DNA from: Acetohalobium arabaticum DSM 5501
GTDB lineage: Bacteria; Bacillota; Halanaerobiia; Halobacteroidales; Acetohalobiaceae
NCBI RefSeq assembly: GCF_000144695.1
Contig: NC_014378.1
Span: 1,822,043 to 1,886,042, forward strand
DNA length: 64,000 bases
Reading direction: 5' to 3'
Shown: in pieces, positions 54,199 through 64,000 of the stretch
Layout: each line of letters opens with the position of its first letter
Position numbering within the stretch: position 1 is the first letter of the stretch
Notes under the pieces: model-generated
The model's input: only the letters and a program-made list of their open reading frames with translations
What the model was told of the DNA's origin: nothing
Databases searched by the model: none
Translations under genes and position numbers: made by a program

Positions 54199-54582
54199 CT
54201 AATCACACTGTGGACAGACCTGCTGGCCCCAGCGGTGTCTTCCATTTTTCTGTTTAGGATTAAAATCACTACCACATTTTGCACAGCGCGGCTTAAACCT
54301 ATAATTACCTCCTCGAAATTTAAGTGACTTTCCTTCAATTAAAGCATCAGTAATCTTTTTTCTTGCTTCAGTCAAAATACGTTGAAAAGTCGGCCGCGAA
54401 ACTTCCATCCGTTCAGATGCTTCTTGCTGCGTTAAATCTTCTTTATCCTTGAGCCGAATCGCTTCTACTTCTTCAATAGTAAGGCTAACCTCTTTTAATT
54501 CCCGCTTAGGAATGCCTACTGGCTTAAAAAACTTAACTTCTGGTATATAACCAACCCGACGTTCTTTAGGTGGACGTCCCAT
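54199..54582 (-). CDS. DUF134 family DNA-binding protein
   Basis: 127 residues. A sigma-70-region-4-like helix-turn-helix (LTQQEASERMEVSRPTFQRILTEARKKI, about 50-78) is preceded by the family start GRPPKERRVGYIPEVKFFKPVG and followed by a C-terminal zinc-ribbon-like CAKCGSDF...QQVCPQC. DUF134 proteins are often encoded with DiNase, MinD and DUF5320 genes, as here, so it may regulate the metal-cluster island. It has its own promoter. Confidence 0.88.
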   Translation of the reverse strand: MGRPPKERRVGYIPEVKFFKPVGIPKRELKEVSLTIEEVEAIRLKDKEDLTQQEASERMEVSRPTFQRILTEARKKITDALIEGKSLKFRGGNYRFKPRCAKCGSDFNPKQKNGRHRWGQQVCPQCD

Positions 54583-55102: not shown

Positions 55103-55116
55103 TGATCATTTGTTCA
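55103..55116. promoter_or_regulatory. Second operator-like site before the DUF5320 gene
   Basis: TGATCATTTGTTCA, with TGA and TCA arms like the sites at the three shared promoters. It lies just downstream of the -10 (55127-55132), a position suited to repression. Confidence 0.5.
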
Positions 55117-55126
55117 TTACAACTTT

Positions 55127-55155
55127 ATTATAACGTATTTATGATCATATGTCAA
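55127..55155 (-). promoter_or_regulatory. Shared-operator promoter a (DUF5320 gene)
   Basis: Minus strand TTGACA, a 17-base spacer and TATAAT. The -35 runs into TATGATCAT, giving TTGACATATGATCA, the same 14 bases as at the DiNase operon promoter. Confidence 0.8.
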
Positions 55156-55190
55156 GAAGTAATCTAATATTTCACACTTGCCTCTTTATT

Positions 55191-55223
55191 TAAAAATCGG
55201 CTTCCGAATTAACGGAAGCCGAT
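55191..55223 (-). terminator. Terminator after the Mrp-like gene
   Basis: An 11-bp perfect stem ATCGGCTTCCG/CGGAAGCCGAT with a 6-base loop, followed by TTTTT on the minus strand. It ends the DiNase-MinD-MinD-DiNase-Mrp operon. Confidence 0.9.
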
Positions 55224-55228
55224 CAAAA

Positions 55229-56023
55229 CTAGAGATGCTTATCCATAATTTTCTTAGCAATAGAGATAAATTCTTTACTTACATCTGACTCAGGCTCTTC
55301 CAGTATAATTGATTTTCCTTGGTCACTATCTTCTCTAACTGCTGGTAATAAAGGTAACTCACCTAGAAGTTCTGTTTCCAATCTCTCAGCCATGGCTTTA
55401 CCTCCGCCTTGACCGAAGATATACTCTTTATTCCCACAGTCAGAACATTGATAATAAGACATATTCTCTACTACTCCTAATGTTTCACATTCCAATTTAT
55501 CGGCCATTTTTCCAATTCGACCGGCTACATTAGTAGCTGCAATCTGAGGAGTAGTTACAATCACTATCTCCGAATCAGGCAACTGCTGCATAATATTTAA
55601 CGGCATATCACCGGTACCCGGCGGTAAATCAAATAATAGATAATCCAGTTCTCCCCACTGCACTTCTGTCATGAACTGTTCTAAAATTCCATGCAGCATA
55701 GGTGCCCGCCAGATAATAGGATCTTCTTCTTGAACTAAAGATCCCATCGACATAACCTTAATCCCTTTAGCAACCGGTGGCTTTAACTTTTTATCATCTA
55801 TGCCCTCTGGTTCTTCTGTTAAACCTAGAATTCTGGGAATACTAAATCCTCGAATATCAGCATCGATAATTCCTACTTTTTTACCTAATTCACTTAAAGA
55901 AACTGCCAAATTTACAGTTATAGTAGACTTACCTACACCGCCTTTCCCGCTGGCTACTGAAATCATCCCTTCATTTACACTACCGTATTCCAGTTTGAAT
56001 TTTCCATCCTCTAATTCATACAT
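55229..56023 (-). CDS. Mrp/NBP35-type Fe-S cluster carrier ATPase
   Basis: 264 residues. Deviant Walker A GKGGVGKS at 26-33, DADIRGFSIPRILGL (switch I), LLFDLPPGTGDMPL (Walker B-like) and a C-terminal CSDCG pair (about 198-201) that bridges an Fe-S cluster between two subunits in this family. It has no N-terminal MIP18-like domain. It is the last gene of the island operon and probably hands clusters to target proteins. Confidence 0.9.
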   Translation of the reverse strand: MYELEDGKFKLEYGSVNEGMISVASGKGGVGKSTITVNLAVSLSELGKKVGIIDADIRGFSIPRILGLTEEPEGIDDKKLKPPVAKGIKVMSMGSLVQEEDPIIWRAPMLHGILEQFMTEVQWGELDYLLFDLPPGTGDMPLNIMQQLPDSEIVIVTTPQIAATNVAGRIGKMADKLECETLGVVENMSYYQCSDCGNKEYIFGQGGGKAMAERLETELLGELPLLPAVREDSDQGKSIILEEPESDVSKEFISIAKKIMDKHL

Positions 56024-56046
56024 TATTGACTATCCCTCCTTCAAAT

Positions 56047-56400
56047 TTAGTGGTCACAGTCATGTTCATCATGGTCACAGATATCTCCTTCTGCATCCAA
56101 GTTTCCAGCTAAATACTCTTCAATAGCTTCATCTACCACACCAGTTACACCAGTCTCTGATTCAATTCCGTTCTGATCGAATAAATCTTTAGCTCTACGT
56201 CCCATTCCTCCAGCTAAAACAACATCTACATTACGTTCATTCAGATACTTAGGCAAAAATCCCGGTTTATGGCCTGGATTTTCAATTAATTCTTTACTCT
56301 TTATTTCATCTCCATCAGCTTCTACAATAGTATACTGCGGACAGCGACCAAAGTGTTGTGCTACATTATCACCATCAGTAGGTACTGCTATCTTTTTCAT
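56047..56400 (-). CDS. DiNase (NifX/NifB-type) family protein with His/Asp-rich tail
   Basis: 117 residues. The dinitrogenase iron-molybdenum cofactor fold: KIAVPTDGDNVAQHFGRCPQYTIVEADGDEI, LNERNVDVVLAGGMGRRAKDLFDQNGIE and VDEAIEEYLAG. The tail CDHDEHDCDH has four His-type ligands with Asp and Cys and should bind metal. ATG at 56400 has AAGGAG 8 bases upstream. It overlaps no nif gene; in sulfate reducers related proteins form a metal-cluster (orange protein) complex with MinD ATPases. Confidence 0.88.
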   Translation of the reverse strand: MKKIAVPTDGDNVAQHFGRCPQYTIVEADGDEIKSKELIENPGHKPGFLPKYLNERNVDVVLAGGMGRRAKDLFDQNGIESETGVTGVVDEAIEEYLAGNLDAEGDICDHDEHDCDH

Positions 56401-56405
56401 CAAAA

Positions 56406-57272
56406 TCACTCCTTAAGTTTATTATTTACTCTCTTCCAGATCCCTTTTAAAGCAGCCGTTACTCTACTTTCAGGATTATAATCAACAATTAATTCTCCCT
56501 GACGCATTGCCTCTACTACTTTTGAATCAAAGGGAATCTTACCTGCTAACATAATATCCTGCTGCTGGCAGAATTCTTCTATCTCAACAGTTATATCTTC
56601 ATTTAAATCAGATTTATTGATAATTACTAAAGCATTAATTCCAAAATGTTCAGTTACCTGTAAAACTCGTTTTAAATCAGCCAGTCCAGACTTAGTCGGC
56701 TCTGTTACAATCAGAGTCATATCAGCTCCATTTAAAGAAGCAACAACCGGACATCCAATTCCCGGGGAACCATCGATCAAGACTAAATCCTTTTCCTGTT
56801 CTTTAGCAATCTCTTCTGCTTTCTGGCTTACTTCACTAACTAACTTTCCCGAATTTTCAGCTCCAATTCCCAGTTTAGCATGAACCATAGGCCCAAATCG
56901 TGAACGGGATAAGAAAATATTCCCTGTCTTTTCTACAGTAAGCTGTAAGGCATCAGTAGGACACTTAGCTGCACATAAACCGCATCCCTCACACTTAACT
57001 TCATCTATTTCATAATCATCAGTTACTGCTCCAAAATTACAGAGCTTCTTACAGAGGCCGCAGTCAATACATTCTTCTTCATCTTTAACTGCCACTTTAC
57101 CACCTTTATAGCTCTGCTCCTCTAAAATTTTAGGTTTCATTAACAGATGCATATTAGGTGCATCTACATCACAATCAGCCAAGACTAAATCTTGGGCTAA
57201 AGCAGTTAAATTGGCAGTTACTATTGTCTTACCGGTACCGCCTTTACCGCTAATCACTGTTACTTTCTTCAT
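56406..57272 (-). CDS. MinD-type ATPase with two inserted 4Fe-4S ferredoxin motifs, copy 1
   Basis: 288 residues. Deviant Walker A GKGGTGKT at 9-16, then an inserted ferredoxin domain (about 60-110) with CIDCGLCKKLCNFGAV and CEGCGLCAAKCPTDAL, and the ATPase core resumed by LVLIDGSPGIGCPV. Family members bind Fe-S clusters and pair with DiNase proteins. It overlaps both neighbours by 4 bp, so it should be made in equal amounts with them. Confidence 0.9.
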   Translation of the reverse strand: MKKVTVISGKGGTGKTIVTANLTALAQDLVLADCDVDAPNMHLLMKPKILEEQSYKGGKVAVKDEEECIDCGLCKKLCNFGAVTDDYEIDEVKCEGCGLCAAKCPTDALQLTVEKTGNIFLSRSRFGPMVHAKLGIGAENSGKLVSEVSQKAEEIAKEQEKDLVLIDGSPGIGCPVVASLNGADMTLIVTEPTKSGLADLKRVLQVTEHFGINALVIINKSDLNEDITVEIEEFCQQQDIMLAGKIPFDSKVVEAMRQGELIVDYNPESRVTAALKGIWKRVNNKLKE

Positions 57273-58111
57273 TCTACCACCTTCTTTGCTTCACAAACAA
57301 CTTCTTGAAAATGCTCACGCCACTCAGGCATCTCTTCTACAAAAGGAATCCCTTCTGAATAGAGTTCAGCTATCTCCCGCTGAAATGGAATCCGCAGTAG
57401 AATTGGAATTCCTTCTACATTACAGTACTCTTCAATAATCCCGTCTCCATCTTCTTCAGAACGATTAATAACTACACCGTAAGGCTTTTTAAGCTTTTTG
57501 ACTACCTCTACTGCCATCTTAAGATCATGGAGACCAAAGGGGGTAGGTTCAGTAACCAGAATACAGTAATCACTATCAGTAACCGCCTCTACAGTAGGAC
57601 AGGTAGTCCCTGGAGGCGCATCCATAATTACTGTTTTATCTTCATTAGTATACTCCTTTAACTTTTCAATCACCGGTACCGCTGATATCTCACCGATATT
57701 CAATTCACCCTGCCAGAACTCTAAACCATTAATATCAGGATCCCATCTAATCTCTCCTGTCTTTCTATCTTTAGCTGTAATAGCCTCTTCAGGACAGATA
57801 TGTTTACAACCGCCGCAGCTGTGGCATAATTTAGGAAAAACCATTAAATTATCACCAAATAGAGCTAAAGCATTATATTCACAGAAATCTATACACTGCT
57901 GGCAATTCGTACATTTCTCCTCATCAATCTCTGGTACTTCCCGCAGAACCAATTCAGATCTATCAGCAAAATCCGGTTTAACAAAGATATAAGAATTCGG
58001 TTCTTCTACATCAGCATCGATAAACTGTACATTATCCAATGATAAAGCTAAATTGGTAGCTACAGTAGTCTTACCTGTACCTCCTTTGCCGCTTAAAACA
58101 GTTATCTTCAT
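57269..58111 (-). CDS. MinD-type ATPase with two inserted 4Fe-4S ferredoxin motifs, copy 2
   Basis: 280 residues and a paralogue of the preceding protein. Walker A GKGGTGKT at 8-15, DADVEEPNSYIFVKP, then inserted clusters CTNCQQCIDFCEYNAL and CHSCGGCKHICPEEAI, and the core TVIMDAPPGTTCPTVEAV. Two such ATPases probably form a heterodimer, as in sulfate-reducer orange-protein operons. It overlaps copy 1 by 4 bp. Confidence 0.9.
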   Translation of the reverse strand: MKITVLSGKGGTGKTTVATNLALSLDNVQFIDADVEEPNSYIFVKPDFADRSELVLREVPEIDEEKCTNCQQCIDFCEYNALALFGDNLMVFPKLCHSCGGCKHICPEEAITAKDRKTGEIRWDPDINGLEFWQGELNIGEISAVPVIEKLKEYTNEDKTVIMDAPPGTTCPTVEAVTDSDYCILVTEPTPFGLHDLKMAVEVVKKLKKPYGVVINRSEEDGDGIIEEYCNVEGIPILLRIPFQREIAELYSEGIPFVEEMPEWREHFQEVVCEAKKVVE

Positions 58112-58130
58112 GACTAATCATCCTATCTAT

Positions 58131-58493
58131 TTATCCCATGTGCCCGGGATTAGTTGGGTTATCTAACTTATCTAACTCTCCAGCCTTATAGGCTTCAACT
58201 ACTTCTTTTAGGCTTCCTCCATCTACAGTATATATATCAATCCCAGCAGATTGTAGTGCCTTAAAAGCTTTAGGTCCTACCTTTACTGAAATTAACTCCT
58301 CTACTCCTTGGTCTGATACCATTTGAGCTGCTTCAATACCTGCTCCACTAGAAGCATTAGCAGCAGAATTATCTATAAATTCTACCTCCATTGATTCTGA
58401 ATCAATGATAGCAAAATAAGAAGCCCGTCCAAAACGCGGGTCTACTTCCGTTTCTAGTCCTGTATTATTACTAGCAGTTACTGCAATCTTCAT
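58131..58493 (-). CDS. DiNase (NifX/NifB-type) family protein
   Basis: 120 residues: KIAVTASNNTGLETEVDPRFGRASYFAIIDSESMEVEFIDN, GAGIEAAQMVSDQGVEELISVKVGPKAFKALQSAGIDIYTVD and a Pro/Gly-rich end. The ATG at 58493 has AAGGAG upstream; the open frame continues 26 codons further back but those would overlap the promoter. It leads the operon from the shared-operator promoter b. It lacks the His-rich tail of the second DiNase protein. Confidence 0.9.
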   Translation of the reverse strand: MKIAVTASNNTGLETEVDPRFGRASYFAIIDSESMEVEFIDNSAANASSGAGIEAAQMVSDQGVEELISVKVGPKAFKALQSAGIDIYTVDGGSLKEVVEAYKAGELDKLDNPTNPGHMG

Positions 58494-58542
58494 TAATACC
58501 AACTCCTTTTTTATATTTGTTGCTGACTTGAAACACAGGAAC

Positions 58543-58571
58543 ATTATAACATAGTTTTGATCATATGTCAA
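58543..58571 (-). promoter_or_regulatory. Shared-operator promoter b (DiNase-MinD-Mrp operon)
   Basis: Minus strand TTGACA, 17-base spacer, TATAAT, with the sequence TTGACATATGATCAA covering the -35 and start of the spacer, identical in 14 bases to promoter a. Confidence 0.82.
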
Positions 58572-58717
58572 TAAATATTAGATTATTCTCAGCTGAATTT
58601 TTCATATATCACTTAATTGATATAAAGTTGCAGTTTCCCAAAATTAATCTTAAGCTAACACCTATGATAATCACTTATATTATTAGGAAAACTGAAATAT
58701 TTATTCTCAATTACTAT

Positions 58718-59179
58718 TCACGAATTACTTCTACATTCTTTACAATATCCATATATCTGCAGCGAATAATCTGTAATTTGAAACTCTTTAGTCTCCATTA
58801 CTTCTTCTTTTAGACCATCAGGAAGAAAATTCTCAATCTCCATAACTTTACCGCATGATTCACAGATTAAATGGTGATGTTTAAGTTTATCTCCAAATAT
58901 GAATTCATATTTAGCTGACTTATCATCAAAATTCCGCTTTACAACTACTCCCAACTCTTCAAGCAAGTCTAGATTGCGATAGATTGTTGCTAGTCCAATA
59001 AAATCATTCTTTTCTTTAATTAAACTATAGATATCATCCACCGAAAGATGTTGGTCACTATTTTCAATAAGTGTCTCAAGAATAACCTTTCGCTGTGAAG
59101 TCAAATGTAAGTCTGTCTGCCACCGTATATCACTTATAATTCCTCTAACTTTTGAGTCTTTCTCGGTCTTTAATGCCAT
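58718..59179 (-). CDS. Fur family regulator of the metal-cluster island
   Basis: 153 residues, a second Fur-family protein distinct from the one by feoB. Winged helix (TSQRKVILETLIENSDQHLSVDDIYSLI; FIGLATIYRNLDLLEELGVV), metal domain with DKLKHHHLICESCGKVMEIEN and a final CKEC pair. GGAGGAG precedes the ATG. Its own promoter carries the same operator-like sequence as the two nearby promoters, so it may control itself and the island. PerR, Zur or Fur type cannot be decided from sequence. Confidence 0.88.
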   Translation of the reverse strand: MALKTEKDSKVRGIISDIRWQTDLHLTSQRKVILETLIENSDQHLSVDDIYSLIKEKNDFIGLATIYRNLDLLEELGVVVKRNFDDKSAKYEFIFGDKLKHHHLICESCGKVMEIENFLPDGLKEEVMETKEFQITDYSLQIYGYCKECRSNS

Positions 59180-59211
59180 ATAAACTCCTCCTATTATGTC
59201 CTGGTAATTAT

Positions 59212-59240
59212 ATTATAACCACTTTTTGAACATATGTCAA
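59212..59240 (-). promoter_or_regulatory. Shared-operator promoter c (Fur-family gene)
   Basis: Minus strand TTGACA, 17-base spacer, TATAAT. The -35 and spacer start read TTGACATATGTTCAA, one base different from promoters a and b in the first 14. Confidence 0.82.
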
Positions 59241-59328: not shown

Positions 59329-60039
59329 TTATTTCATTAATTTTTCTAGCTCATTCTTTGTTGTTTCTAAGTGATTATACATACTTTCTCGAGCCAGCTG
59401 CGGTTTTTTTGCAGCTATATTTTCATAAATCTTTTTATGCTGTTTATATAACATCTCATTATTACCTTCAACAGTAAATAATTTCTGTCTACTTTGACCA
59501 ATAGCTTGAATCAACAGATCAGAAATAGTATACATAACTTTAGTAAACATCTGATTATGTGTGGCTTTAACTATTGCAATATGGAATTTAACATCTGCTT
59601 GATCCCCTAATCTACCTTCTTTGACATCCTGTTCCATATCCTGAATGACTTCACCTATTCTTTCAATATCTTCTTCAGTAGCCCGTTTAGTTGCCAAAGC
59701 AGCACTTTCAACCTCTAATATTTTTCTAACCTCTATTAATTCAAACACATTATCTGTATCTCCAGCCAGAATTAAAGCTAACGGCTCCACTACTTTATCT
59801 TCTTTCATCTCTTTAATAAAGGTTCCCTCTCCTGGCCTACTTTCAATTAAACCTAACATTTCCAACACACTAAATGCTTCTCTAATGGAAGCGCGGCTGA
59901 CATCTAATTCTTCGGCCATAGCCCGTTCTGACATCAATTTATCTCCCGGCTCTAAAGTTCCATCAGTAATTAATTCCCGAATCTGTTCTATTATCTGTTG
60001 ATAAATTCTCTTATTTTTAATCGGTTTAAAAATTGACAT
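59329..60039 (-). CDS. FadR/LldR-type GntR family regulator
   Basis: 236 residues. The N-terminal GntR winged helix (IYQQIIEQIRELITDGTLEPGDKLMSERAMAEELDVSRASIREAFSVLEMLGLIESRPGEGTFI) is followed by an all-helical FCD ligand-binding domain (ILEVESAALATKRATEEDIERI; DVKFHIAIVKATHNQMF; HKKIYENIAAKKPQLARESMYNHL). The His and Asp residues of the FCD metal/ligand site are in place. It lies downstream of lactate genes, so lactate-dependent control is likely. Confidence 0.88.
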   Translation of the reverse strand: MSIFKPIKNKRIYQQIIEQIRELITDGTLEPGDKLMSERAMAEELDVSRASIREAFSVLEMLGLIESRPGEGTFIKEMKEDKVVEPLALILAGDTDNVFELIEVRKILEVESAALATKRATEEDIERIGEVIQDMEQDVKEGRLGDQADVKFHIAIVKATHNQMFTKVMYTISDLLIQAIGQSRQKLFTVEGNNEMLYKQHKKIYENIAAKKPQLARESMYNHLETTKNELEKLMK

Positions 60040-60175
60040 ACTTTCTCTCTCCTATCTAGTTGCTAACTCAACCCTTTTAATTTAAATCTAAATAAATATT
60101 AGTCACATTAATTATTTGTTTCTATAATAAAGTAAATTATTCCTGCTATATCTGAAAAATTAATTAAGAAATACA

Positions 60176-60214
60176 AAATAAAAGAGATTCTCTATATGAT
60201 ATAGAGAATCTCTT
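60176..60214 (-). terminator. Terminator after larA
   Basis: A near-perfect inverted repeat of about 16 bases, AAGAGATTCTCTATAT and its complement, followed by TTTTATTTT on the minus strand. It separates larA from the regulator gene. Confidence 0.9.
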
Positions 60215-60260
60215 GGTAAAAAATCAGTTGTAAACTTTCTATCTAGAAAAAATATTTAAA

Positions 60261-61535
60261 TTATTTAACTATAACTGAAACACCATCAGGTACTACAGTA
60301 ATTTCAGGATTATCATTATTAACTATTTCCTTAGCCATTGTTACTGCTTCGTCTATATCAGAAGCCCACTTCATATGCATATCTTCTACCATTTCCCGCG
60401 GGGCATCAGTAACCATAATTACTTCAAACTGTAAAAGAATCCGGGCTAGAACCTGTGACTCCCATTGGTCGGGAACTGTTTCATTTCTACCTCTAACTTC
60501 AATTTCTTCCATAACCTCAGGTACAGTTTCAGCTTCAGCAAAAGTACGGTAAAAGCCCTCTCCACCATGTCCATCTGAACATTCCGAAGCTATTATAATA
60601 ACTCCGTTTTCATTACAGGTGGCCTCAGCCGCCGTCATACTCTTAACCGACTGATAAATATTCTGATCCAATGGATAACCGCCATTAGTAGTTACTACTA
60701 TATCAGCCGGTTTAGATTCGGCTCCGGCCAGCTTCGTAACAAAATCACATCCCTCTAAATGTGCTTCTTGATAATGACCAGCGAAAGCATTAATTACTTT
60801 CTTTTCTTCATTAATAGCTACGTTGAGAATAAAGTCCAAACCTGCTTCTTCAGCTGCATAAAGCATATCTTCATGCATAGGATTACCGTCTAAAATACCG
60901 GTCCTTGCGTGATCATGGCCTACAAACTCTGCACAATGATTGGCTAACACAGTCTTCTTGCTGGCAATTCCAGGTAGAATACTCTTTCGCCCACCAGAAA
61001 ATCCGGCAAAGAAATGAGGCTCAATAAATCCTTCTGCTATTAACAAATCAGCTTCAACAGCCAACTGATTTAAAATCAAGTCTCCTCCGGAAGGTAGAGT
61101 GCCAATTTCCACTAAACTATCTTCATCACGGCAGTCATGATTAATAATTCTCTCATTGTCAACAATTTCATCTCCGTACTTATCCCTAAGTTCTTCTTCT
61201 GTTGAAGCACGGTGGAACCCAGTAGCAACTAAAATTGTAATCTCCGCTTCTGGATTTCCAGCCCTAATCTTATCTAATAAAATAGGCATCGTTACATGGC
61301 TGGGCACAGGACGAGTATGATCACTGGAAATAATTACAATTTCTTCTTTATCCTGGGCTAACTCCTGTAAAGTAGGAGTTCCAATAGGCTCAGCTAGAGC
61401 CTCTTTTACTAATTCTTTCTCTGATTTTTCAACTGTATATTCATGGGTTTGAGAAGTTAAAACACCTTTAAGTTCATCTTCAGGAAGCTCCAAAGTCAAT
61501 TTTTCTTTTCCATAAGGTAATTTTACAGTAGTCAC
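60261..61535 (-). CDS. larA: Lactate racemase (LarA), nickel-pincer enzyme
   Basis: Interconverts L- and D-lactate using a nickel-pincer nucleotide cofactor bound to a lysine. In this 424-residue protein the key residues fall at the same numbers as in the Lactobacillus plantarum enzyme: His108 (ATGFHR), His174 (PHFFAG), Lys184 (GGRKS) and His200 (LANH). IISSDHTRPVPSH and the C-terminal TVPDGVSVIVK are also typical. GTG start with GGGAGG upstream. Some relatives act on other 2-hydroxy acids, but the match and the adjacent dehydrogenase favour lactate. Confidence 0.92.
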   Translation of the reverse strand: MTTVKLPYGKEKLTLELPEDELKGVLTSQTHEYTVEKSEKELVKEALAEPIGTPTLQELAQDKEEIVIISSDHTRPVPSHVTMPILLDKIRAGNPEAEITILVATGFHRASTEEELRDKYGDEIVDNERIINHDCRDEDSLVEIGTLPSGGDLILNQLAVEADLLIAEGFIEPHFFAGFSGGRKSILPGIASKKTVLANHCAEFVGHDHARTGILDGNPMHEDMLYAAEEAGLDFILNVAINEEKKVINAFAGHYQEAHLEGCDFVTKLAGAESKPADIVVTTNGGYPLDQNIYQSVKSMTAAEATCNENGVIIIASECSDGHGGEGFYRTFAEAETVPEVMEEIEVRGRNETVPDQWESQVLARILLQFEVIMVTDAPREMVEDMHMKWASDIDEAVTMAKEIVNNDNPEITVVPDGVSVIVK

Positions 61536-61556
61536 TTTTATCCCTCCCTTTTTTCT

Positions 61557-62819
61557 TTAATTATTTTCCTTGCCTTTCTGATAAGCCTCGTCTAACAGCT
61601 GAACTGTATGAACTACATCTTTATCCAAATCAGCTTTATTTAGACCATCAACAATCTGCATTAAGCAAGCTAAACAACCTGCAGCTACAGTATCCGCTCC
61701 TGTCTGTTTAATATCTTCTGTCTTATGACGATGAATATCCATAGACAAATCATAATGAGCAATATTAAACGTTCCAGCAGAGCCACAGCAGCGGTTAGGT
61801 TCTTCCATTTCTTCAAAGTAGAGACCAGGTATTGCTTCTAATATCTCTCTAGGCTGTTCAGTTACTCCCATCCCTCTGCTTAAATGACATGAATCATGAT
61901 AAGTTACCTTTTTCCTTACAGACCCTAGCTTTTCACGATCAATTCCAACAACATCCACTAAGTATTCAGAAATATCATAGACTTCAGCCTCAAATTCTGT
62001 CTTCTCTAACCACTCTGGATATTCCTCTCTTAAAGTACTACCTCCAGAACCACAGGCAGTCACAATCGCATCTACATCATAACTATTTATCGCTTCTATA
62101 TTATTCTTTGCTAATTCTTTAGCCGTATCTACATCCCCATAACTATTTATTGCTAATCCACAACACTGCTGCTCTTCAGGAATTACAACTTCAATATTAT
62201 TTTCTGTCAATACATTAACTACTGCTTCTCCAACCTTAGGTTCTATATAATTAATAGCACATCCAGTAAAGAAAGCTACCCTACCTTCAGGATTATCAAC
62301 CTCTATCACTTCAGGATATTTATCTCTAAAATGTTCAGTTGCTAAATTAGGTACCACTCTATCTTTATCCAGACCTAATCCCCCTAGTCTTATATTATTA
62401 CCAGACTGTGGTCCATCATTCTCTTTAAAAGCTAACCCCTGAAAGTTTGCTCCTAATTTCATAGCAATAGGATATAATGTCTTATTACCTACTATACTGA
62501 AAATTCCTTTTTTAAGGACCGATAATCCCTTTTCGTCAGCTAACTCCTCTCGAGCTTTAAGAACCAACTTATCAACTTCTACTCCACAGGGACAGTTATC
62601 TGCGCAGGCTTTACATAATAGGCATAATTCCATAAATTCTTTATATTTATCTGTCAATTCTAAGTCTTCATTTAAAACACTTTCCATTAAATTAACCTTA
62701 CCCCTGGCTACTGCAGCCTCATTATCCAATTCAGTAAAGATAGGACAAACCTCTCTACAGAGGCCGCATTTTACACAGTTGGCAAGCTCATCTTCAATTT
62801 CTTGTAATACTTTACTCAT
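61557..62819 (-). CDS. GlcF-type Fe-S subunit of lactate/glycolate dehydrogenase
   Basis: 420 residues. Two 4Fe-4S motifs at the N-terminus (CVKCGLCREVCP and CLLCKACADNCPCGVEV) and two CCG domains with CCGLAINSYGD and CCGSAGTF. Such proteins pass electrons from a GlcD-like flavoprotein. The ATG at 62819 has GGAG 9 bases upstream; a TTG five codons before is less likely. It overlaps the GlcD gene by 8 bp. Confidence 0.9.
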   Translation of the reverse strand: MSKVLQEIEDELANCVKCGLCREVCPIFTELDNEAAVARGKVNLMESVLNEDLELTDKYKEFMELCLLCKACADNCPCGVEVDKLVLKAREELADEKGLSVLKKGIFSIVGNKTLYPIAMKLGANFQGLAFKENDGPQSGNNIRLGGLGLDKDRVVPNLATEHFRDKYPEVIEVDNPEGRVAFFTGCAINYIEPKVGEAVVNVLTENNIEVVIPEEQQCCGLAINSYGDVDTAKELAKNNIEAINSYDVDAIVTACGSGGSTLREEYPEWLEKTEFEAEVYDISEYLVDVVGIDREKLGSVRKKVTYHDSCHLSRGMGVTEQPREILEAIPGLYFEEMEEPNRCCGSAGTFNIAHYDLSMDIHRHKTEDIKQTGADTVAAGCLACLMQIVDGLNKADLDKDVVHTVQLLDEAYQKGKENN

Positions 62820-64000
62820 TATCATCAGCTCCAATTAATTTATGTGGATTAAATAATCCTTTAGGATCTAGAGCATATTTTAGATCTCTTAAAGCCTGTA
62901 AACCATCCTCTCCTATCTCTTGAGTCATAAAGCCAACTTTGGCACTTCCGATACCATGTTCACCAGATAATGTGCCATCTAATTCTAACGCTAAATCAAA
63001 GATTTCTTCCACAGCTTTATGCACTCGTTCCATTTCTTCTTCGTCGCGTTCATCAGCTAGAATCGTAGGATGTAAGTTTCCATCTCCAGCATGGCCAAAA
63101 GTTCCAATCTTTAAGTCATATCTCTCTGCTATCTCTCTAATCCCCTTAATCATAGCCGGGATATTACTACGCGGAACTGTTGCATCCTCAAGAATAGTTG
63201 TCGGCTTTTCTCTTGCTAAAGCAGAAAAGGATGATTTTCTGGCTGCTTTGAGCTCATCCCTTTCTTCATCACTTTTTGCCAGTTCAACCTCACGTGCATT
63301 ATGCTCTTCACAAATTTTAATTACTTTCTTATAATCACGTTCTACTACCTCTTCAAGACCATCTACCTCAATTAATAAAACTGCTTCTGCATCAGTAGGC
63401 AGACCGATTTCAGCAAATGCTTCAACTGTCTTAATAGTTACCTGATCCATAATCTCTAAGGTAACAGGTATTACTTTATTACTAATGATACTAGATATTG
63501 TCTCAGCTGCATCATCCAGTTCATCAAATATAGCCAACATAGTCTTGCGGGTATCAGGTGCTGGAATTAATTCTAAAGTTGCTTTTGTTATAATACCTAA
63601 TGTCCCTTCCGAACCGGTATATAAATTTGGTAAGTCATAACCGGTTACATTCTTAACTGTTTTACCGCCTATTTCAATTATTTTACCATTGGGTAAGACT
63701 ATCTCTAGGCCCATTACATAATCCTTGGTAACACCATACTTTAAGCCCCGCAGTCCGCCAGCACACTCAGCAATATTACCACCGATTGTAGAAACTGACA
63801 TACTTCCTGGATCAGGCGGAAACAGTAACTCTTTCGCCTCAACTCTATTACATAATTCTTCAGTAATAACTCCTGCTTCTACTGTCGCTGTTAAGTTCTC
63901 TTCATCAATCTCCAAAATCTTATCCATTCTAGTTAATACAACTACTACACTATTTTCAATCGGAATAGTTCCCCCACATAGATTAGTTCCTGCTCCTCGA
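62812..64000 (-). CDS. GlcD-type FAD-linked lactate/glycolate dehydrogenase (N-terminus beyond window)
   Basis: About 395 codons are visible of some 460. The frame is open to the window edge, where RGAGTNLCGGTIPIENSVVVVLTRM forms the FAD-binding region of the VAO/GlcD family, so the Met at 63927 is not the start. Then come FPPDPGSMSVSTIGGNIAECAGGLRGLKYG, KTVKNVTGYDLPNLYTGSEGTLGIITKATLELIP and the C-terminal FGHAGDGNLHPTIL and LSGEHGIGSAK. With the GlcF-type subunit and LarA, D-lactate is the likely substrate. Confidence 0.92.
   Translation of the reverse strand, partial: RGAGTNLCGGTIPIENSVVVVLTRMDKILEIDEENLTATVEAGVITEELCNRVEAKELLFPPDPGSMSVSTIGGNIAECAGGLRGLKYGVTKDYVMGLEIVLPNGKIIEIGGKTVKNVTGYDLPNLYTGSEGTLGIITKATLELIPAPDTRKTMLAIFDELDDAAETISSIISNKVIPVTLEIMDQVTIKTVEAFAEIGLPTDAEAVLLIEVDGLEEVVERDYKKVIKICEEHNAREVELAKSDEERDELKAARKSSFSALAREKPTTILEDATVPRSNIPAMIKGIREIAERYDLKIGTFGHAGDGNLHPTILADERDEEEMERVHKAVEEIFDLALELDGTLSGEHGIGSAKVGFMTQEIGEDGLQALRDLKYALDPKGLFNPHKLIGADDNE

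Follow-up and report, generated by a model that had tools for sequence, protein, structure and literature searches.

A palindromic promoter site shared by an iron–sulfur/metal-cluster gene module in Acetohalobium arabaticum, and the DUF134 protein as its likely regulator

Three promoters in a 64 000-nucleotide stretch of Acetohalobium arabaticum DSM 5501 (NC_014378.1, positions 1,822,043 to 1,886,042; the whole stretch is called the window here) carry the same sequence over their -35 hexamers. They precede a DUF5320 gene, a DiNase-MinD-MinD-DiNase-Mrp operon and a gene for a Fur-family protein. From comparison of sequences, we consider it highly probable that the shared sequence is an operator of the DUF134 family, which would control an iron–sulfur (Fe-S)/metal-cluster module together with the Fur-family gene, likely by repression. 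The regulator acting at the site is most likely the DUF134 (PF02001) protein.

The sequence TTGACATATGWTCA, with a 17-base pair (bp) spacer and TATAAT, is exact at the three promoters, all on the minus strand: promoter a of DUF5320 (55155..55127, TTGACA-TATGATCATAAATACGT-TATAAT), promoter b of the DiNase-MinD-MinD-DiNase-Mrp operon (58571..58543, TTGACA-TATGATCAAAACTATGT-TATAAT) and promoter c of the Fur-family gene (59240..59212, TTGACA-TATGTTCAAAAAGTGGT-TATAAT). The letters following the -35 are TATGATCA at promoters a and b and TATGTTCA at promoter c. The DUF5320 gene has two operators on that strand: operator 1 (TTGACATATGATCA, 55142..55155) overlaps the -35, the -10 TATAAT lying at 55127-55132, and operator 2 (55103..55116; TGATCATTTGTTCA, on the minus strand TGAACAAATGATCA) stands just past the -10, 39 bp from operator 1. 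Single minus-strand operators are seen at the operon (TTGACATATGATCA, 58558..58571; -10 at 58543-58548), at the same position as in the DiNase operons of relatives, and at the Fur-family gene (TTGACATATGTTCA, 59227..59240; -10 at 59212-59217). An earlier description made without database searches (the sequence-only reading) had listed three promoters with an identical site, TTGACA-17-TATAAT spacing and a further site after the DUF5320 -10, and it was accurate on each of these points. It had also stated that other good promoters lack the site, which was borne out when the window was scanned: TTGACATATGWTCA with 0–2 mismatches occurs at these three places only, the remaining matches all have 3 mismatches, and the site was not found at the promoter of the window's Fur gene (upstream of 46854) or at the DUF134 promoter.

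The whole-genome motif search that had been suggested (2,469,596 bases, up to one mismatch) gave four matches to TTGACATATGWTCA, whereas its reversed control gave zero. The fourth match (G000:C1:467642) is upstream of a 58-amino acid (aa) DUF5320 paralogue, where a second site again follows the -10; all four are at module genes or at the Fur-like gene. The site marks a real small regulon in this genome, beyond chance. The local regulon with a shared operator that had been proposed is thus strongly supported by the four genomic matches and by conservation in the class and the phylum, except that its fourth member lies outside the window. Occurrence of the motif upstream of many unrelated genes had been named as the observation that would speak against such a regulon; it is not seen in this genome, although some other genes are preceded by the site in relatives from the Halanaerobiaceae.

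Conservation within the class was analysed among 61 relatives. The exact 14-mer is present in 24 of them, at 45 places, compared with a single place for the reversed control. Gene neighbourhoods were then picked by their DUF5320 or FurL genes (FurL being the Fur-family protein of promoter c), without regard to the site, and occurrences of TTGACATATGNYCA within 250 bp upstream of each gene were counted, one mismatch being allowed. The site precedes DUF5320 genes in 36 of 47 cases, first DiNase genes in 14 of 31, FurL-like genes in 5 of 8 and Mrp genes in 1 of 21, as against 2 of 426 for other genes, and the reversed pattern gave 0 in every gene class. No MinD, second DiNase, DUF134, GntR or Fur1-like gene of these neighbourhoods has the site within that distance; most DiNase and MinD genes need no site of their own because they are internal to the operon. 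In 39 of the 44 genomes of the neighbourhood set the site stands before a module gene, the exceptions being G003, G024, G040, G043 and G056. Two of these (G043 and G056) have versions with two mismatches, and in G024 the site is about 860 bp upstream of the DUF5320 gene. In G040 (L276, G040:C44), the promoter upstream of the DUF5320 open reading frame (ORF) ending at 277 is a variant, with TGACATATGTCA twice in place of TGRRCATATGYYCA, possibly reflecting a shifted specificity. A divergent DUF134 protein, with the recognition helix CRKTFWND instead of SRPTFQR, is encoded in G047 (L270, G047:C62) next to a DUF5320 gene without the site; the other DUF5320 gene of that genome does carry it. A further variation is found in family f5 and in G034 (L165, L167, L168, L176 and L180), where the MinD ORF is about 580–650 aa long, as if both MinD proteins were fused.

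Among 29 loci with the exact 14-mer (L015-L043), 15 contain a module gene according to phmmer and 14 do not. Those of the latter that were read by eye have the site inside coding sequence or before what are presumably genes for a NhaC-like antiporter, FAD (flavin adenine dinucleotide) oxidoreductases, a TauE-like protein, a C_GCAxxG protein or a ferredoxin. The exact sites before antiporter-like, FAD oxidoreductase, C_GCAxxG and TauE-like genes are from Halanaerobiaceae relatives (L016-L020, L022, L024, L040 and L041), and an expansion of the regulon is possible there.

The complete operator is palindromic, TGRRCATATGYYCA. Direct reading shows that the -35 hexamer TTGACA differs from the half-site TGRRCA at the second base only. 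At DUF5320 promoters, site 1 overlaps the -35 and site 2, TGARCAWATGNTCA, follows the -10. A first search with the palindrome TGARCATATGYTCA found only 7 of the 61 relatives, because AAATG or another change is present in most second sites, and the consensus was widened after the promoters had been read. Of 398 genomes sampled from the phylum, 71 were then found to have the two-site pattern and 0 its reversed control. Over 84 two-site places, the core-to-core distance is 34 in 25, 35 in 19 and 39 in 14, and a uniform spread across the 17 allowed values is rejected. Translations downstream of 30 such loci (L278-L307) were read by eye: 17 have a DUF5320-like protein, and the others have DUF134 (L278 and L289), DiNase, Mrp or MinD, Fur-like proteins (L291 and L301) or a few unassigned ORFs. 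Outside the module, two-site promoters precede large ORFs of 425–455 aa in G061 and G209 (L293 and L294). It is hardly credible that the sites are nothing but a strong promoter motif without a regulator: they do overlap the -35 hexamer, as that explanation would have it, but the conserved letters run beyond it, the full palindrome recurs where it has no -35 role, and other promoters do without the site.

Near-palindromes are present at 22 places in the A. arabaticum genome, and eight of these loci were read (L007-L014). Five fall within coding ORFs or at their starts, a sixth is not followed by any called gene, and the remaining two are intergenic, namely G000:C1:379674 (L009; TTATCATATGATCA, 42 bp before a TusA-like ORF of 197 aa) and 694117. 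The two intergenic ones are possible weak members of the regulon.

One line of evidence for DUF134 is the sequence in front of DUF134 genes elsewhere. Named genome contigs were scanned with a DUF134 alignment, yielding 80 loci, of which 55 are non-Halanaerobiales by their titles; 46 of the 55 had a recognisable DUF134 ORF. From 200 bases upstream to 60 bases downstream of the start of this ORF, each of the 4096 possible palindromic 12-mers was counted, up to one broken pair being tolerated. GAGCATATGCTC occurs in 15 of the 46 loci, its relative GAACATATGTTC in 3, unrelated palindromes in no more than 2, and the mean is 0.03; upstream of 451 other genes in the same loci, GAGCATATGCTC ranks only 214th. 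The palindrome stands 24–39 bp ahead of the DUF134 ORF in nine loci of the Dehalococcoidia type, and the site is directly upstream of DUF134 itself in both Clostridia and Chloroflexi. A palindrome in this position is the trace expected of an autoregulated DUF134. Co-occurrence agrees with this assignment. DUF134 is carried by 68 of the 71 phylum genomes with the two-site pattern, as against 198 of the 327 without it (Fisher P = 2e-10, without correction for kinship). Among the matches listed, the place of DUF134 is known for at least 49 of the 71 site-bearing genomes and is within 10 kb of the site in 27 of these. Of the 61 relatives, DUF134 is found in 23 of the 24 genomes with the exact 14-mer, and none of the eleven that lack both DUF134 and DUF5320 has this 14-mer.

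DUF134 had been only the second candidate of the sequence-only reading, which gave preference to the Fur-family protein at 58718; the occurrence of the site upstream of DUF134 in Clostridia and Chloroflexi, together with co-occurrence, reverses that order. FurL would bind the site and repress its own gene and the module, and in favour of this are the site at its own promoter, its position adjoining the DiNase operon, in this genome as in some relatives, and the 5 of 8 FurL-like genes preceded by the site. The distribution, however, does not fit. In a FastTree phylogeny of 33 Fur-family proteins (the 30 best-scoring loci, neighbourhood loci and both window proteins), FurL groups only with proteins of families f1, f2 and f6, one divergent G016 protein standing beside the group, and the top-scoring Fur proteins from f3, f4, f5, f8, f12 and f13 cluster with ordinary Fur. 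Families f7, f9 and f10 are outside this tree, and their best matches score below the window's own ordinary Fur. The site itself also precedes the same genes in f3, f4, f5, f7, f8 and f9, outside the families in which the tree shows FurL, and it precedes DUF134 in Chloroflexi and Clostridia. On this distribution, with the FurL clade as seen in the tree from the 30 best-scoring loci, FurL is rejected as the general regulator and is very improbable as the repressor here; it appears to be a member and target of the regulon. Compared by eye with the 7-1-7 consensus of Fur/PerR/Zur, the site bears no obvious resemblance to it.

A metal sensor of the ArsR/SmtB type, encoded elsewhere in the genome, is marginally less probable still than FurL. 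The palindrome resembles the CzrA-type operator TGAACATATGTTCA, and there are eight HTH_5 genes in the genome. Such a sensor would not explain why, in other phyla, the site lies immediately upstream of DUF134. None of the 22 near-palindromes is close before any of the eight HTH_5 genes, the nearest being about 1.5 kb off, inside another gene.

Several observations weigh against DUF134 as the repressor. The DUF134 genes of the class lack the site: a CATATG of any kind is upstream of just 1 of the 30, and its context there is unrelated. DUF134 autoregulation is thus deduced from other groups only. The site is present with no detected DUF134 in the relatives G020 and G041 (each 93% complete), G052 (79%) and G057 (62%), of which G020, G041 and G057 show it in its wider form, and 3 of the 71 phylum genomes with the site (G103, G166 and G304, 90–94% complete) are likewise without DUF134. 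Profiling with MinD1 did not tell regulator and module apart: G020 and G041 (93%) are the only genomes at least 90% complete that have MinD1 without DUF134, and both retain the site. Moreover, co-occurrence alone cannot separate a regulator from a fellow member, because in the class DUF134 and the module are mostly either both present or both absent. The fold matches considered below are weak (best Foldseek E = 0.034, every Z < 8) and may reflect a common arrangement. Finally, a site overlapping the -35 could also suit an activating regulator. DUF134 would then bind the site mainly as an activator or a dual regulator, a helix-turn-helix (HTH) domain like that of sigma region 4, placed over the -35, perhaps permitting contact with RNA polymerase. 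We regard this as unlikely, though by no means negligible: the -35 and -10 hexamers are consensus and need no activator, and with a spacing of 34 the second site would fall at about -2 to +12 relative to the presumed start, a repressing position.

As a repressor, the DUF134 protein (54199-54582) would bind the palindrome TGRRCATATGYYCA, probably as a dimer. At these sigma-A-type promoters one operator copy merges with the -35, and at DUF5320 promoters a second copy, mostly 34, 35 or 39 bp downstream, would lie near the transcription start; the bound dimer would then exclude RNA polymerase. The set controlled in this way would comprise the DUF5320 small proteins and DiNase-MinD-MinD-DiNase-Mrp, and in this lineage also the Fur-family regulator. 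Repression may be relieved by a metal or redox signal, which is likely in view of the similarity between the genes under control and the ORP/MrpORP set of Fe-S biogenesis. The cysteines of the DUF134 tail (CxxC...CPxC) are absent or broken in some site-bearing lineages, and for this reason the tail may not be the sensor. Sigma region 4 is the domain that reads the -35. In the predicted DUF134 model (mean predicted local distance difference test score 81.6) the HTH aligns best with the HTH of DeoR and with many sigma region 4 domains (Foldseek E ≥ 0.03, Z up to 7.1), and the Pfam sigma70 region 4 models match the window DUF134 just under their cut-offs. We tentatively suggest, with the balance leaning against it, that DUF134 is itself a -35 reader whose sigma-region-4-like HTH would recognise inverted -35-like half-sites (T-G/T-R-R-C-A), competing with the sigma factor for the same hexamer and so switching Fe-S/metal-cluster modules in Firmicutes and Chloroflexi.

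All genes of the module are on the minus strand. The gene of the proposed regulator, DUF134 (54199..54582; Pfam 94.4 bits, cut-off 27), is followed in coordinate order by the regulon member DUF5320 (PF17253; 54729..55085; Pfam) and by the operon, whose last gene encodes a Mrp/NBP35-type ATPase (55229..56023; PF10609, 317 bits, with a match to the MrpORP model below its cut-off). The rest of the operon consists of DiNase-type gene 2 (PF02579; 56047..56409; Pfam), MinD-type ATPase genes 2 (56406..57272) and 1 (57269..58111), each with two 4Fe-4S motifs according to domain matches, and DiNase-type gene 1 (PF02579; 58131..58493), the first of the operon. The latter has an ATG start at 58493, and an alternative longer TTG ORF extends into the operator. 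FurL (58718..59179; PF01475, 113.8 bits) is placed here as a regulon member and not as a general regulator. Beyond it, window positions 59329-63927 hold lactate racemase-like genes and genes resembling Fe-S and FAD-linked subunits of lactate/glycolate oxidase, after a GntR/LldR-like regulator. No DUF134 site is found at the promoter of that regulator.

The DUF134 (UPF0251) family, whose function is unknown, is widespread, with a match in 266 of the 398 sampled phylum genomes. In the listed titles and opening parts of abstracts on DUF134, UPF0251, DUF5320 and the palindrome, no function, operator or targets are given for the family, and in the available part of PMC5886521 a UPF0251 gene is mentioned solely among the secondary mutations tabulated for rex mutants. 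The palindrome, its list of targets and a candidate regulator make the role of the family directly testable. Many anaerobic bacteria have the site at the same genes, and the regulon gives a handle on DUF5320 and on control of the MinD/DiNase/Mrp metal-cluster module in anaerobes without the sigma-54 arrangement of Desulfovibrio.

Among known systems, ArsR/SmtB operators such as that of CzrA have the same TGAACATATGTTCA-type palindrome core, but the protein family is another one and no ArsR gene stands beside the sites here. A point in common with Fur/PerR regulons is the nearby Fur-family member gene, whereas the distribution of the site does not follow the Fur-family protein. The DUF134 HTH aligns with those of DeoR/SorC proteins and of sigma region 4, but DUF134 is short, has neither the DeoR effector domain nor the other sigma regions and ends in a cysteine tail in most members. 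In gene content there is a likeness to the ORP/MrpORP set of Desulfovibrio vulgaris, which, in the available part of its description (PMC6345978), serves Fe-S biogenesis and, like the window, combines two MinD-type ATPases bearing two 4Fe-4S motifs with DiNase proteins and a Mrp/NBP35 ATPase. There the genes form two divergent operons with sigma-54 promoters and a cognate regulator; the window module differs in having sigma-A-type TTGACA-17-TATAAT promoters, a palindrome overlapping the -35 and a DUF134 protein.

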